Origin: a virus
Reading direction: 5' to 3' (one strand)
Virus record (IMG/VR): IMGVR_UViG_3300032893_000293
Span: 1-22,016 of that record
DNA: 22,016 nt
Both the position numbers and the translations under genes were made by a program. The notes beneath the pieces are model-generated. The model saw only the letters and a program-made list of their open reading frames with translations. It had not been told where the DNA came from and ran no database searches. Positions 5,287-19,512 of this stretch are shown in pieces. Positions within the stretch are counted from its first letter, which is position 1, and each line of letters starts with the position of its first letter.

Positions 5287-5423
5287 GACTCGTGGAGCCG
5301 GAAGAGGCGTTGCGACGGGGACGACACGAGGCGGCCTACAGTGAGCAGGCGGACGCCGCCGGTGTCGTGCAGTACTACTGTAAGAGTTGCACCGCCCAGC
5401 TCTGGAAGGAATACGATGCGTAA
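5235..5423 (+). CDS. Small zinc-ribbon-like protein (62 aa)
   Basis: The product, MSQRLAYCRTCSKRLSLRLV..., has two CxxC knuckles (C8/C11 and C49/C52) separated by a basic, then acidic linker. This is typical of a small zinc ribbon that binds nucleic acid or protein. AAGGA lies about 10 nt before the ATG at 5235. The gene overlaps the end of the DUF4406 gene by 52 nt in another frame and the next gene by 8 nt. The knuckle spacing makes the reading frame convincing despite the overlap. Confidence 0.5.
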   Translation: MSQRLAYCRTCSKRLSLRLVEPEEALRRGRHEAAYSEQADAAGVVQYYCKSCTAQLWKEYDA

Positions 5424-5589
5424 GGAACACTTGACGGTTAGGGTAAGCCCCGAAACCCAGGACCGTATCCGCGACCGTGCTAAAAAAGAAGGGCTGAACG
5501 AGGCCCGTACGCTGCGGTCTCTGATACTCGCCGGGCTGTGGGTCTACGATATAATCGAGAGGTACCACGACAATGCCGAAACGCCCTAA
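5416..5589 (+). CDS. Ribbon-helix-helix (Arc/CopG-like) small protein A (57 aa)
   Basis: The product starts MRKEHLTVRVSPETQDRIRD. It shows the beta strand (HLTVRV), first helix (PETQDRIRDRAKKEG) and second helix (EARTLRSLILAGLWVYDII) of ribbon-helix-helix DNA-binding proteins, which act as dimers on operator DNA. AAGGA lies 6 nt before the ATG at 5416. It overlaps the zinc-ribbon gene and the next RHH-like gene, so all are co-expressed. It may be an autoregulator of this arm; its target is not visible. Confidence 0.55.
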   Translation: MRKEHLTVRVSPETQDRIRDRAKKEGLNEARTLRSLILAGLWVYDIIERYHDNAETP

Positions 5590-5857
5590 AGACAAGAACG
5601 TCCTCACGCTGCTGTGCCCGGAGGGCACGAACCTCTGGCTGAACCGCTACGCCTTTGAGCGTGGGGTCAGCAAGAACAAGCTGTGCATGGACCTGCTCAC
5701 GCTGGCGGTCATCGCCGGCTGGGACCCGGACGACCCGACGCTCCAGCCGAAACGAGTGGGGGCTCCGCTCCCGCAGCCGCCGGTGAACCCACCGGGCAAG
5801 CCGTTCTACCTCGATACGCTCCCGTTCCGTCTCCCGCAGGATAGCGATGGCGACTAA
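5573..5857 (+). CDS. Ribbon-helix-helix-like protein B with Pro-rich tail (94 aa)
   Basis: Residues 9-50 (NVLTLLCPEGTNLWLNRYAF and onward to LLTLAVIAGW) repeat the strand-helix-helix pattern of its neighbours. The rest is a Pro-rich tail (PLPQPPVNPPGKP) that probably binds partners. GAGAGG lies about 11 nt upstream of the ATG at 5573, which is 17 nt inside the previous gene. The tandem arrangement suggests a duplicated regulator family. The strand carries a Cys in the DNA-facing region, so binding is less certain than in protein A. Confidence 0.45.
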   Translation: MPKRPKDKNVLTLLCPEGTNLWLNRYAFERGVSKNKLCMDLLTLAVIAGWDPDDPTLQPKRVGAPLPQPPVNPPGKPFYLDTLPFRLPQDSDGD

Positions 5858-6335
5858 CGAGTACACAAAGCTAAAAGAAAGGGCTGACCGCGCCGCCCGC
5901 AAGGCGAAGGGCACGGTGCCCCTGTCACGCATCCGCGTGAGCATCGCGCTGTACCGTAGCCTCGTCGAGATGTGCGAGAAGCACGGCTGCACCATGTCCG
6001 AGGCGATGAAGTGGGCACTCGAAGAAGGAGTCAAGGTCTTCGGGGCTCGCGTCCAACGCCCGCGTCTCAACATCACACGAGCGATGCCTGAGTTTAACGA
6101 CGAGGCGCTCCGCATCGGCGACGACAGCGTGAAGGCGCTGCTGAAACGGGCGCGGCAGAGCCGCGCAGCAGGAACCAACACGGTCGTTATCGAAGAAGAG
6201 CCGTCGGACATTGAGCGGTTCATTAAAGCCGCAGTAGACTCCGGAGCACTGTCCGCGATTCCCGCAGACGTGCTCCTGCCGAGCACCGGGCCAGAGGCAC
6301 CGGAGCCAGAAGAGGAACCCATTGAGCAAGAGTAA
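5847..6335 (+). CDS. Ribbon-helix-helix-like protein C with extended C-terminus (162 aa)
   Basis: After a basic N-terminal helix (YTKLKERADRAARKAKG), residues 26-66 show strand and helices (SRIRVSIALYRSLVEMCEKH and onward to ALEEGVKVFG) like the two preceding proteins. The C-terminal 95 residues are unique and end in an acidic tail (PEAPEPEEEPIEQE). Acidic tails of DNA-binding proteins often modulate DNA or protein contacts. The start at 5847 overlaps the previous gene by 11 nt. Its stop overlaps the exonuclease start. It could be a nucleoid-like or regulatory protein. Confidence 0.5.
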   Translation: MATNEYTKLKERADRAARKAKGTVPLSRIRVSIALYRSLVEMCEKHGCTMSEAMKWALEEGVKVFGARVQRPRLNITRAMPEFNDEALRIGDDSVKALLKRARQSRAAGTNTVVIEEEPSDIERFIKAAVDSGALSAIPADVLLPSTGPEAPEPEEEPIEQE

Positions 6336-7607: not shown

Positions 7608-7883
7608 ATGCGGCTCGTCGCTCCTGGTTCACTAAGCATCGAGCCTTTCCTTGGCTCTGGTGTCACGCCTGGCGGTATACAAGTGGAGTACCACGAGAGC
7701 TACCCGCCCGTTCTGGGTCGTGTCCTTGCGGTACATCCGACTGTGACGGAATGCTCCCCGGGTGATGTCGTCGTGTTTCGCCCCTACGCGTACGACGAGG
7801 AAGACTATACCAGGGGCACAATCAAAGTTCTGTACGAGAAAGACGTACGTGCCGTAATAGAAGGGTATCCAGATGTCGAGTAA
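7608..7883 (+). CDS. GroES-like (Cpn10-fold) protein, divergent copy 1
   Basis: The 91-aa product follows the co-chaperonin pattern. A first strand LSIEP is followed by a flexible GSGVTPGGIQV segment at the place of the GroEL-binding mobile loop (GGI-x-V). Then come VLGRVLAVHP (the GxVLAVG strand), SPGDVVVFRPYAY (VGDxVxF) and DVRAVIEG (the ILAVIE end). It would form rings that cap host GroEL, or a structural relative of them. The ATG directly follows the phosphatase stop; GGGAGG lies about 12 nt upstream. It is more divergent than copy 2 at 8105. Confidence 0.6.
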   Translation: MRLVAPGSLSIEPFLGSGVTPGGIQVEYHESYPPVLGRVLAVHPTVTECSPGDVVVFRPYAYDEEDYTRGTIKVLYEKDVRAVIEGYPDVE

Positions 7884-8115
7884 AATACTAGGCCCGAAGG
7901 GGGAGCCCCTTGGGGAAGACACAAACCGACTCCCGCTTCCGATGGCGGAAATTCAAGTCGAGGGCGGAAAGGTGCTTCGCGTACCGCTTGTGGCTGTCGC
8001 AGCGCTCAGTATCGGAGCAGTCGACCAACTCACCACTGCCATCGTCGCCTGCCTCCGGGCCTCCGAGGCCGAAGCCACCGACGCCGAGTTCACGGAGGCT
8101 GTCGATGCGGCTTAG
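7873..8115 (+). CDS. Small hypothetical protein between the two GroES-like genes (80 aa)
   Basis: The product, MSSKILGPKGEPLGEDTNRL..., has a polar N-terminus, a strand-like EIQVEGGKVLRVPLVAV, an Ala-rich helix and an acidic C-terminus (ASEAEATDAEF). I do not recognise it. It overlaps copy 1 by 11 nt and copy 2 by 11 nt, so all three are co-translated. The GKVLRVPL segment hints at a small beta barrel, but this is weak. Confidence 0.5.
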   Translation: MSSKILGPKGEPLGEDTNRLPLPMAEIQVEGGKVLRVPLVAVAALSIGAVDQLTTAIVACLRASEAEATDAEFTEAVDAA

Positions 8116-8380
8116 GCCATGTGGCGACCGTATGGTCGTCAAGCAGGCGTTGAAGGATGAGCAGCTACCCAGCGGCATCTACCTGCCCGAGTTCGAGCTT
8201 GACAACTGCAACGAGGGCACGGTGTTGCGCCTCGGCTTCCCTGGGACCGCCCCAGCCGAGGTGGGGGAGCGCGTCGTGTTCGTCTCCTATGGTGGAACTG
8301 AGGTGACCCTGGACGGGGAAAAGTACCTCATACTGGACTACAAGCACATCCTCTGCGTGGTGGAACCCAAAGGTGCGTAA
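8105..8380 (+). CDS. GroES-like co-chaperonin, copy 2
   Basis: The 91-aa product aligns by eye along the whole Cpn10 family: LRPCGDRMVVKQ (RPLxDRVVVK), a mobile-loop-like LPSGIYLPE carrying the GI-x-L tripeptide, EGTVLRLGFPG, VGERVVFVSYGGTEV, LDGEKYLIL and HILCVVE. It should assemble into a seven-fold cap on host GroEL and help fold phage proteins, as gp31 of T4 does. GGAGG lies 6 nt before the ATG at 8105. The lysis genes follow directly (8-nt overlap). Confidence 0.8.
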   Translation: MRLRPCGDRMVVKQALKDEQLPSGIYLPEFELDNCNEGTVLRLGFPGTAPAEVGERVVFVSYGGTEVTLDGEKYLILDYKHILCVVEPKGA

Positions 8381-11531: not shown

Positions 11532-11708
11532 ATGGCAAAACCCAGATGGGTGGGTAAATGCGGAGTCTGTAGCAAGCCAGGTAAGTGGAGCCCTAAATCA
11601 ACCGGCTCTGGTAATGGATGGCTCTGGGAACAAGCGTGTGATTGCGATGGCGTCAAGGCCGATGCTCCAACGCCTGCCACCGCTGGAGGGAAAACAGGAA
11701 GAGGCTAA
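11532..11708 (+). CDS. Small zinc-ribbon-like protein overlapping the terminase start (58 aa)
   Basis: The product starts MAKPRWVGKCGVCSKPGKWS and has a CGVC knuckle (C10, C13) and CDC (C37, C39), a likely treble-clef or zinc ribbon. An ideal AAAGGAGG lies 4 nt before the ATG, the strongest ribosome site near here. It overlaps the terminase frame by 95 nt from 11614. The terminase frame is also open, without a start codon, back to about 11440, so the two frames compete over this stretch. The second Cys pair spacing is unusual. Confidence 0.5.
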   Translation: MAKPRWVGKCGVCSKPGKWSPKSTGSGNGWLWEQACDCDGVKADAPTPATAGGKTGRG

Positions 11709-13377
11709 CGCTCTTCTTGTAGACTTCGACACGTTCGTCCGCGGTACGCGGATTCTACCGGACTACTGTGAGCAGCCACATAAGGAGATGTGCGACGAGC
11801 TCGAAGCTTGTGTCCCGGACTTCGATAGCGACAACCCGCGGCAGATAAAACAAATTTACATGGCCCCCCGCTACTCGTACAAGACGAGTATCCTGGTGGC
11901 CTTCGTTTGTTATTGCATCTTCAAGTACACCAACATTCGTATCACGCTTGGCCGTGCCACGCACAAGGATTCCCGCGAGACGCTGCGTTCCATCAAGGAC
12001 GCGCTGACTAAGGACAACCCGAAGATAACGGAGGTATGGGGGAATATCTCCCACAAGGCCCCAACGTGGACCGAGTCGGCCATCTCCCACGGCTTCCGCA
12101 CCATGGCACTAGTCGGTCCCACTGTGGTGACCGCCGGCATCGGCATCGGTCAGACCGGTACCCACCCCGACCTCGTGCTGCTCGATGACCTCGTGACTGA
12201 GGTCAACTACCTGTCCGAGCCCATCATCCTGCGCACCCGCGACTGGGTTACCTCCTTCTATGCCATCCTTCCGCCCCACGGCTCCATGGTCGTGTGTGGC
12301 ACCCGTTGGGCATACAACGACATTTACACCTGGCTGATGGAGCAGGATGACCAGGCCGAGGAGGATGCGCGTGCTGAAGCTGAGATGCTCGGTCAGCCCG
12401 AGCCGCCCGACGGTCGGCAGTGGCGTAGATACATCCGTCGCGTGTGGGAGTATGACGAGAAGGGGGAGAAGATTCTGTTCTTCCCGTCGAAGCTGGACGA
12501 GGACTTCCTCGCACGGCAGCGCCGCGCCCTGCGCGGGGACATGCACAAGTATTATGTCTGGTACTTCCAGCAACCCTATGAGCGCGGCACCAAACTCTTC
12601 CCAGCGGAGGACCTACAGACGTATGGCGGTAGCGTCCTACCGGGGGACTACCCCACGCTGCTGATAGACGAAGAGACCACCAACGACATCTACTCCATCG
12701 GCACCGAGATACCCGTTAACGTCACCATGACGGTCGACGCTGCCGCCACAAGCGGCAAGAAAGCGGACTTCACGGGTATCGTCATTGTTGGCTGCGACTT
12801 CTTCGACCAGTGGTGGGTCCTCCACGCAGAGGGCGTCCGGAAGACGCCGTCACTGCTGGCGGACTACTGCGCTATGCTCATCGCCGTCCATAGCGTCTCC
12901 GTCTGCTGCATTGAGACGGAACAGTCCGACCCCGTGTTTGTGTCCCGTCTGCAGCAGGCGCTGACTGCCATGGACATCAACTGTGCCATAACCTCCTACT
13001 CGGCCCTCCAGGACGAGGCGCATGGGGAGCGCGGTAAGGTCCAGCGCATCGCCGCCATGCAGTACCGCTACATCGACCACGACCTTTGGATACGCCGCGG
13101 CAGCCCCTGCCGGGACCTCTTGTCGCAGATGGACGGCTGGCCCACAGTCGACCACGACGACGTGCTGGACGCCCTGTCCATGCAGCGGCATGTGGCGCGT
13201 CCCAGCCCGTTGGCATCTTACGAGGACAAGAGCATGCTGATGGAGGCACTGGAGGAAGCCGACTCCTGGGGACCCAACGGCCGCCCACCGGCAACCCCGG
13301 CTAAGCCCACTCGTCACACCCCTCGGGGGTGCTGGACGGGTAAGGGGTCCTTGACTCTGCGGAATGTGGTAGTATAG
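11614..13377 (+). CDS. terL: Terminase large subunit (TerL), ATPase plus nuclease
   Basis: The 587-aa product is the DNA-packaging motor. The ATPase domain has a variant Walker A, APRYSYKTS (84-92), a Walker B, DLVLLDD (186-192), and a coupling motif, VCGTRWAYND (228-236). The RNase H-like nuclease follows with TVDAAAT (D375), CIETE (E434) and VDHDDVLDA (D515, D516, D519). The start is uncertain: ATG 11614, GTG 11638, ATG 11647 and ATG 11662 are all in frame. 11638 has GGGAA 7 nt upstream and 11662 has AAGG 4 nt upstream. No small terminase subunit is evident in the window. The C-terminal 20 residues run through a promoter-like sequence. Confidence 0.85.
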   Translation: MDGSGNKRVIAMASRPMLQRLPPLEGKQEEANALLVDFDTFVRGTRILPDYCEQPHKEMCDELEACVPDFDSDNPRQIKQIYMAPRYSYKTSILVAFVCYCIFKYTNIRITLGRATHKDSRETLRSIKDALTKDNPKITEVWGNISHKAPTWTESAISHGFRTMALVGPTVVTAGIGIGQTGTHPDLVLLDDLVTEVNYLSEPIILRTRDWVTSFYAILPPHGSMVVCGTRWAYNDIYTWLMEQDDQAEEDARAEAEMLGQPEPPDGRQWRRYIRRVWEYDEKGEKILFFPSKLDEDFLARQRRALRGDMHKYYVWYFQQPYERGTKLFPAEDLQTYGGSVLPGDYPTLLIDEETTNDIYSIGTEIPVNVTMTVDAAATSGKKADFTGIVIVGCDFFDQWWVLHAEGVRKTPSLLADYCAMLIAVHSVSVCCIETEQSDPVFVSRLQQALTAMDINCAITSYSALQDEAHGERGKVQRIAAMQYRYIDHDLWIRRGSPCRDLLSQMDGWPTVDHDDVLDALSMQRHVARPSPLASYEDKSMLMEALEEADSWGPNGRPPATPAKPTRHTPRGCWTGKGSLTLRNVVV

Positions 13378-18555: not shown

Positions 18556-19512
18556 GTGGCTTCGATAATCAACACCCGGACCCCGAAACTTTCTGCCGCA
18601 CTCGTACTCGAAAAGGCGTTTACGAACCGTGCGCAGAAGGTTCCACCGCTGTACACGAAGTGGATGAATGTAATCTCCACAGATGAGAAGCGGTCGTTCG
18701 CGACGTTCCTCCCCATTGCCGAGCTCAGCACCCTTCGATTCAAGACCGAAGGCGCGGCACCCGAGTTCGACCAGCCGTTCGAGCTGATTCCCTCGACCTT
18801 CAACTACTTCACCTTCGCGCTGGCCTGCACGGTCACCGAGGAGGCCCAGTTGGAGGACCCCATCAACTTGATGGGCAAGCTCCCCGCGATGCTCGCGGAC
18901 TCAGAGCAGCAAACCAAGGACCTCACGTTCTGGAACACGCTTAACCTGGCGTTCTCCGGCAACGTGCTCGGCTCAGACGGGCAACCGCTCTGCTCGACGG
19001 CTCACCCGCTGGCCCCCATCACCGCTCCCGGTGTGGGTGTCATCTCGCAGATTGGCGCCACGTTCAGCAACTCGCTGGGCGCGACCCAACTCACAGCCGA
19101 GGCATTGCAGCAAGCGTACATCCTCTTTGAGACGCTGTTGTCGGACCGTGGCCTCCCGGCCCGCCGGACCCCCAAGTTCCTGCTTGTCGGCCCGCAACTC
19201 GCCAAGGTGGCTGAGGAAATTCTCGGCAGCCCGTATCGTCCTGGTACCAACCAAAATGACATCAACGTCATCAAGGATACGGTCCAGCTCTTGGTCGTGC
19301 GGTACTTCACCAGCCCGACTGCCTGGTTCGTCACCTCTGGGCCTGGCGATATCGAAGGGGACAGCCACAGCGTCATCGTGGCGCACAAGTGGGAAAACCG
19401 GGTTTCGACCTGGATGGACCCGCAAACGTCCAACTTCAACATCAAGACTTCGTTCCGGTCCACCTACGGGTTCATCGGATGGCGGGGCATCGTCGGCAGC
19501 CTGGGAGCGTAA
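18556..19512 (+). CDS. Major capsid protein (HK97-fold, Mu gpT-like)
   Basis: The 318-aa product has the layout of Mu gpT-type capsid proteins. It shows an N-terminal helix, IAELSTLRFKTEGAAPEFDQ, then DGQPLCSTAHPLAP (about 139-152, the DGxPLFSTAHP signature). LTAEALQQAYILFETLLSDR is followed by RRTPKFLLVGPQLAKVAEEI, then NQNDINVIKDTVQLLVVRYFTSPTAWFV, the typical closing motifs. It forms the icosahedral shell. The start is GTG 18556 with AAGGAG 6 nt upstream, one of the best ribosome sites in the arm, as expected for the most abundant virion protein. Confidence 0.85.
   Translation: MASIINTRTPKLSAALVLEKAFTNRAQKVPPLYTKWMNVISTDEKRSFATFLPIAELSTLRFKTEGAAPEFDQPFELIPSTFNYFTFALACTVTEEAQLEDPINLMGKLPAMLADSEQQTKDLTFWNTLNLAFSGNVLGSDGQPLCSTAHPLAPITAPGVGVISQIGATFSNSLGATQLTAEALQQAYILFETLLSDRGLPARRTPKFLLVGPQLAKVAEEILGSPYRPGTNQNDINVIKDTVQLLVVRYFTSPTAWFVTSGPGDIEGDSHSVIVAHKWENRVSTWMDPQTSNFNIKTSFRSTYGFIGWRGIVGSLGA

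Follow-up and report, generated by a model that had tools for sequence, protein, structure and literature searches.

The window that we analysed, a linear phage fragment of 22,016 bases which makes up the entire IMG/VR record IMGVR_UViG_3300032893_000293, carries in the late operon on its + strand two co-chaperonin (Cpn10) genes, the products of which, P0001 and P0003 (Table 1), are markedly dissimilar and both devoid of the roof hairpin. Phage co-chaperonins are the textbook case of a single-gene takeover of GroEL. In the window, the two proteins may instead represent two different lids for the host GroEL, acting separately, the second of which would be specialised for phage clients, and we assign to this reading a probability of about one half. 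Far from being peculiar to this contig, the pair recurs in a group of related phages, and a lineage that keeps two unlike lids makes it possible to test directly whether a virus adjusts the GroEL chamber to particular clients by exchanging or combining its lids.

Table 1. Location of the two co-chaperonin genes, their diagnostic segments and the neighbouring and late genes in the window
Feature	Position	Strand	Basis or remark
P0001, divergent roofless Cpn10 ("P1-type"), 91 aa	7608-7883	+	Profiles, predicted fold, relatives
P0001 mobile-loop tripeptide IQV, residues 24-26, GroEL-contact position	7677-7685	+	Alignment
P0001 shortened roof segment, 9 residues vs 18-19	7734-7760	+	Spacer count
P0002, orphan ORF, 80 aa	7873-8115	+	Between P0001 and P0003
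P0003, Cpn10 of canonical type lacking the roof hairpin, 91 aa	8105-8380	+	Pfam PF00166, model
P0003 mobile-loop tripeptide IYL, residues 25-27	8177-8185	+	Sequence, alignment
P0003 shortened roof segment, 10 residues	8234-8263	+	Spacer count
Terminase	11614-13377	+	PHROG 38
Portal, 660 aa	13833-15815	+	
Major capsid protein, HK97-type, 318 aa, ~34 kDa	18556-19512	+	PHROG 371

The three open reading frames at 7608-8380 are as the preliminary description gave them, with P0002 overlapping each of its neighbours by 11 nt; all three show a coding-like GC content by codon position, and a ggagg sequence sits a few nucleotides 5' of the start of P0003. The absence of a chaperonin gene alongside them, which had also been pointed out, extends to the relatives, Cpn60 being found neither in the window nor in 10 related records.

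P0003 is a Cpn10 by profile as well as by predicted fold. It scored 57.1 bits (E 1.9e-15) against Pfam PF00166, the cut-off of which is 21.1 bits, and received the same assignment from NCBIfam and PHROG. The five models of its predicted structure (pLDDT 84.7) were consistent, and the best Cpn10 match, with a Z of 13.0 (VIA), was to the protein of T. thermophilus. P0001 alone, in contrast, reached 16.1 bits (E 0.012) against the same Pfam family, below the cut-off, and is therefore classed as a Cpn10 by homology and fold, not by Pfam's rule. In particular, it matched PHROG 3188 (co-chaperonin GroES) with an E of 2.7e-5, and, with a profile built from the Cpn10s of other phages, it outscored every one of 2,000 shuffled versions of itself. 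A profile of the P1-type proteins gave 97% in hhalign against canonical Cpn10s and, when PDB sequences were searched with it, the top 14 matches were all Cpn10s, the best being Cpn11 (E 1.9e-7). In the set of loci available for a further search, which comprised 11,747 ORFs, the same profile retrieved its own family and then about 110 known Cpn10 ORFs, practically all of them, with nothing but Cpn10s above E 0.3.

The template-free AlphaFold model of P0001, for which only P1-type sequences served as input, reached a pLDDT of 81 in the best of five predictions and of 51-57 in the other four; like the model of P0003, it shows the GroES beta-barrel with a disordered mobile loop. The top 35 Foldseek matches of this model were all Cpn10s, gp31 included, and it could be superposed over its full length (residues 1-86, 85 aligned) on GroES 4pko with a VIA Z of 10.1, as against at most 5.8 for dehydrogenase barrels. 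Thus, the proposal that both genes encode Cpn10 proteins is borne out by profile searches and predicted fold, and a different fold for the 7608 protein, the outcome set against that proposal, is ruled out by the Foldseek ranking and by the Z values. None of the nine P1-type members does better than E 0.011 in Pfam, so that proteins of this kind would normally be labelled hypothetical, and others have possibly been overlooked elsewhere.

The strong divergence of the two proteins outside the mobile-loop motif, already apparent on first inspection, amounts to 26% identity with a pairwise E of 0.30, and the P1-type family is itself highly divergent, with long branches; judging from the sequences, binding to GroEL is not guaranteed at such a distance. 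It is possible to hypothesize, on the basis of this very low similarity and of the occurrence of a GroES-type barrel also in alcohol dehydrogenases, seen among the lower fold matches, that P1-type proteins keep the barrel and have lost the lid role, acting, for instance, as an inhibitor of GroEL that shuts out host GroES, or else as a virion or regulatory protein. We consider this improbable, because the Cpn10s rank clearly above the dehydrogenases, the model leaves the mobile loop disordered and the GroEL-contact tripeptide is hydrophobic-x-hydrophobic in all nine P1-type proteins of the alignment. The mobile-loop motifs noticed at the outset were in fact confirmed, namely, GGIQV in P0001 and SGIYL in P0003, where IYL is in register with the IVL of GroES. 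In both proteins the loop is of GroES-like length, different from the longer gp31-type loop (22 vs 16 residues), and a 6-residue insertion in it occurs in locus L173 only.

The roof hairpin is missing from both proteins, whose roof spacers fall short of a median of 19 residues in 57 Cpn10s of the capsid clade described below and of 18 in 46 other viral Cpn10s. The spacer was counted between the chosen anchors, and the conclusion rests on these 103 rows, not on the additional row for E. coli GroES. In the P1-type family the spacer is 8-9 residues, with one exception of 13 in the relative G051, whose canonical Cpn10 is fully roofed (spacer 18). In the alignment, the roof region is short as well for the product of a groS gene that closely precedes the terminase gene in phage vir526, assigned to Methanomicrobiales (L014 1027-1380, BK063670.1).

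Relatives of the window were obtained by alignment-based scans only, as scans of viral contigs with single P0001, P0003, terminase or portal proteins gave no match. A capsid alignment led to a wide clade, and a portal alignment, built from the window and the first relative, led to 17 closer contigs, with identities of 31-49% for the portal and 38-57% for the capsid protein; a portal scan of bacterial genomes revealed no prophage relative. The contigs are fragments. The P1-type gene is present in 10 of the 11 records searched, window included, the sole exception (G059) being a fragment that starts inside its canonical Cpn10. Canonical and P1-type genes occur together in the window, G051, G056, G060, G062 and the nearly identical G063 and G066. 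In most relatives, 1-2 kb separate the canonical gene from the P1-type gene downstream of it; in the window the canonical gene closely follows the P1-type gene, and in G060 tens of kilobases lie between them. In G055 (45.9 kb) the P1-type gene is present and a canonical copy was not detected, in a contig that may be incomplete. The latter contig (IMGVR_UViG_3300048502_000193) starts with AAGCAGTGGTATCAACGCAGAGT (L186 1-23), which resembles a template-switching library adaptor left in the assembly.

In the tree, nine P1-type proteins form one clade, with support of 96/96, apart from all other Cpn10s and with P0003 outside it, which indicates two old lineages and no recent duplication. The tandem arrangement in the window could suggest a recent duplication with one copy decaying and no functional meaning, which in its simple form is refuted by the tree and which we regard as highly improbable in general: no fewer than eight further phage records contain P1-type orthologues, and the P0001 frame is intact, with its coding-like GC content. 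The tree (4 changes) does not group the canonical copies and P0003 into a single clade, so that P0003 may be a separate acquisition. Since the divergent type is kept by the whole group of related phages, it probably has a job of its own.

A single copy is the rule among other phages, as the preliminary description had supposed. A second Cpn10 was found in none of the 98 viral loci outside the group, a count that spans flanks of 6-10 kb or up to the contig ends, and 16 of the 17 GenBank phage records have exactly one; among 47 viral loci retrieved through their similarity to Cpn10, a second, P1-type copy occurs only in L139, which is the relative G051. Two weak candidates for a second Cpn10 (L155 6648-6941 and L157 4487-4825) belong to an unrelated neighbour family. 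A literature search, within the papers open without subscription, found no description of two co-chaperonins in one phage. Of the wider capsid clade (L036-L114), 49 loci cover the 2.8 kb that precede the capsid gene; every one of them encodes exactly one Cpn10, 2.3-2.9 kb before that gene, and a search of whole records yielded one Cpn10 match in 47 of 50 and two in none. A capsid-linked co-chaperonin is thus near-universal in this clade; these proteins are nearly all roofed and mostly of 133-169 aa, and the distance of their genes to the capsid gene is nearly fixed. At the corresponding position the window has no Cpn10.

Nine annotated phages present a small gene of 55-79 aa just before the capsid-linked Cpn10. 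P0002 does not appear to be a counterpart of this gene, a search that took in those loci having given no match, nor does it look like a Cpn10 remnant, as it bears no similarity to Cpn10. It matched no family and has no homologue among the 11,747 ORFs, and its presence is probably incidental. The co-occurrence of the trio, which had been proposed as a check, therefore did not hold: P0002 is without relatives in the sequences searched, the order and spacing of the genes vary, and the pair of G060 is widely separated.

The location of both genes in one operon, with overlapping frames, could also point to a mixed ring, in which P0001 would share one asymmetric heptameric lid with P0003 or with host GroES, a possibility that we hold to be rather doubtful. 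Its stricter form, a hetero-oligomeric roofless lid of two unlike Cpn10s, from the phage pair or from P0001 with host GroES, that would leave an asymmetric, open GroEL chamber, appears unlikely to us. To our knowledge, no mixed-subunit GroEL lid is known from any virus. The best PDB matches of the P1-type profile were Cpn11 and Cpn20 of one chloroplast chaperonin entry, 7ekq, which would favour a mixed ring, but the match is unspecific, because GroES follows close behind. A precedent exists in chloroplasts, where some co-chaperonins act in mixed rings only, as does Cpn10(1) of A. thaliana, active only as a hetero-oligomer with Cpn20 (PMC4242682). Chloroplast Cpn10, Cpn11, Cpn20 and Cpn23 resemble the present case in that several dissimilar Cpn10 subunits occur in one system; they differ in being organellar and partly double-domain, whereas the phage pair is known from genes and models. 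On the other side, the two genes vary in their order and in the distance between them, a loose linkage that fits separate rings, and in G051 the would-be subunits differ in their roofs. G055, with its P1-type gene and no detectable canonical copy, argues against a mixed ring for which a partner encoded by the phage would be indispensable; together with the distance between the genes in G060, it suggests that the P1-type function is separate from that of the canonical copy, although the missing copy of G055 is weak evidence in a contig of uncertain completeness.

Under the preferred reading of two separate lids, P0003 would form a heptameric lid on host GroEL, replacing host GroES late in infection, and P0001 would form a second lid, most likely as a ring of its own, specialised for phage clients. 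Since no Cpn60 was found in the 11 records, the lids should act on host GroEL. As with T4 gp31, the absence of the roof may provide an opening or extra room above the folding chamber. The likeliest clients would be head proteins (capsid, portal), given that the pair lies in the late operon and that in the capsid-related phages a co-chaperonin is nearly always part of the head module; in particular, the genomic association in the wider capsid clade makes the capsid protein a plausible client. The small size of that protein means that room for a large chain is not an obvious reason for an open roof, which may alternatively serve the portal or partly protruding chains.

Compared with the GroES/Cpn10 family (PF00166), the window proteins share the fold, the mobile loop and the GroEL-contact tripeptide, and they differ in the lack of a roof in both, in the lack of a groEL partner gene and in the sub-threshold score of P0001 alone. 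T4 gp31, which is needed for folding of the capsid protein gp23, is without roof loops, a lack believed to help it fold that protein (PMC6318259). As with T4 gp31 and RB49 CocO, the system would combine a phage-encoded Cpn10 with host GroEL, a partnership that we infer here from the genes, and the shared absence of the roof accompanies matches to gp31 with a Z of 7.2 for the P0001 model and 9.1 for that of P0003. Different from T4, which has one such protein, the window has two from separate lineages, P0003 is nearer to bacterial GroES than to gp31, and the client gp23 is much larger than the capsid protein of the window. GroES is a core gene in HTVC023P-type pelagiphages (PMC9599517), which, with their relatives, share with the window related capsid proteins and the linkage of a phage Cpn10 to late genes. 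Theirs, however, is one roofed Cpn10, mostly of 105-180 aa, encoded between the portal and capsid genes, whereas in the window there are two, short and roofless, whose genes precede that of the terminase, and none before the capsid gene.

Some further observations concern neighbouring genes and other phages. The cultured Bacteroides phage DAC16 carries a full groES-groEL pair (L192 2504-4403, corresponding to MT074137.1:176197-178096; Cpn10 76.6 bits, Cpn60 247 bits), both annotated as hypothetical, and a weak partial Cpn10-like match at 67022-67129. In the window, a 274-aa HExxH metallopeptidase-like protein is encoded at 1638-2462 on the - strand, with a weak, sub-cut-off match to the ATLF metalloprotease family. 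Directly 3' of P0003 (8373-9054) come a gene resembling transglycosylases and one for a small hydrophobic, holin-like protein; judged by eye, a small hydrophobic product and a transglycosylase-like one are also encoded after the P1-type gene in G051. Positions 5341-6335 hold a tandem of three small genes, two or more of them weakly ribbon-helix-helix-like, and a relative of the third lies directly 5' of the P1-type gene in L166 (1870-2331) and also near the P1-type gene in L173.
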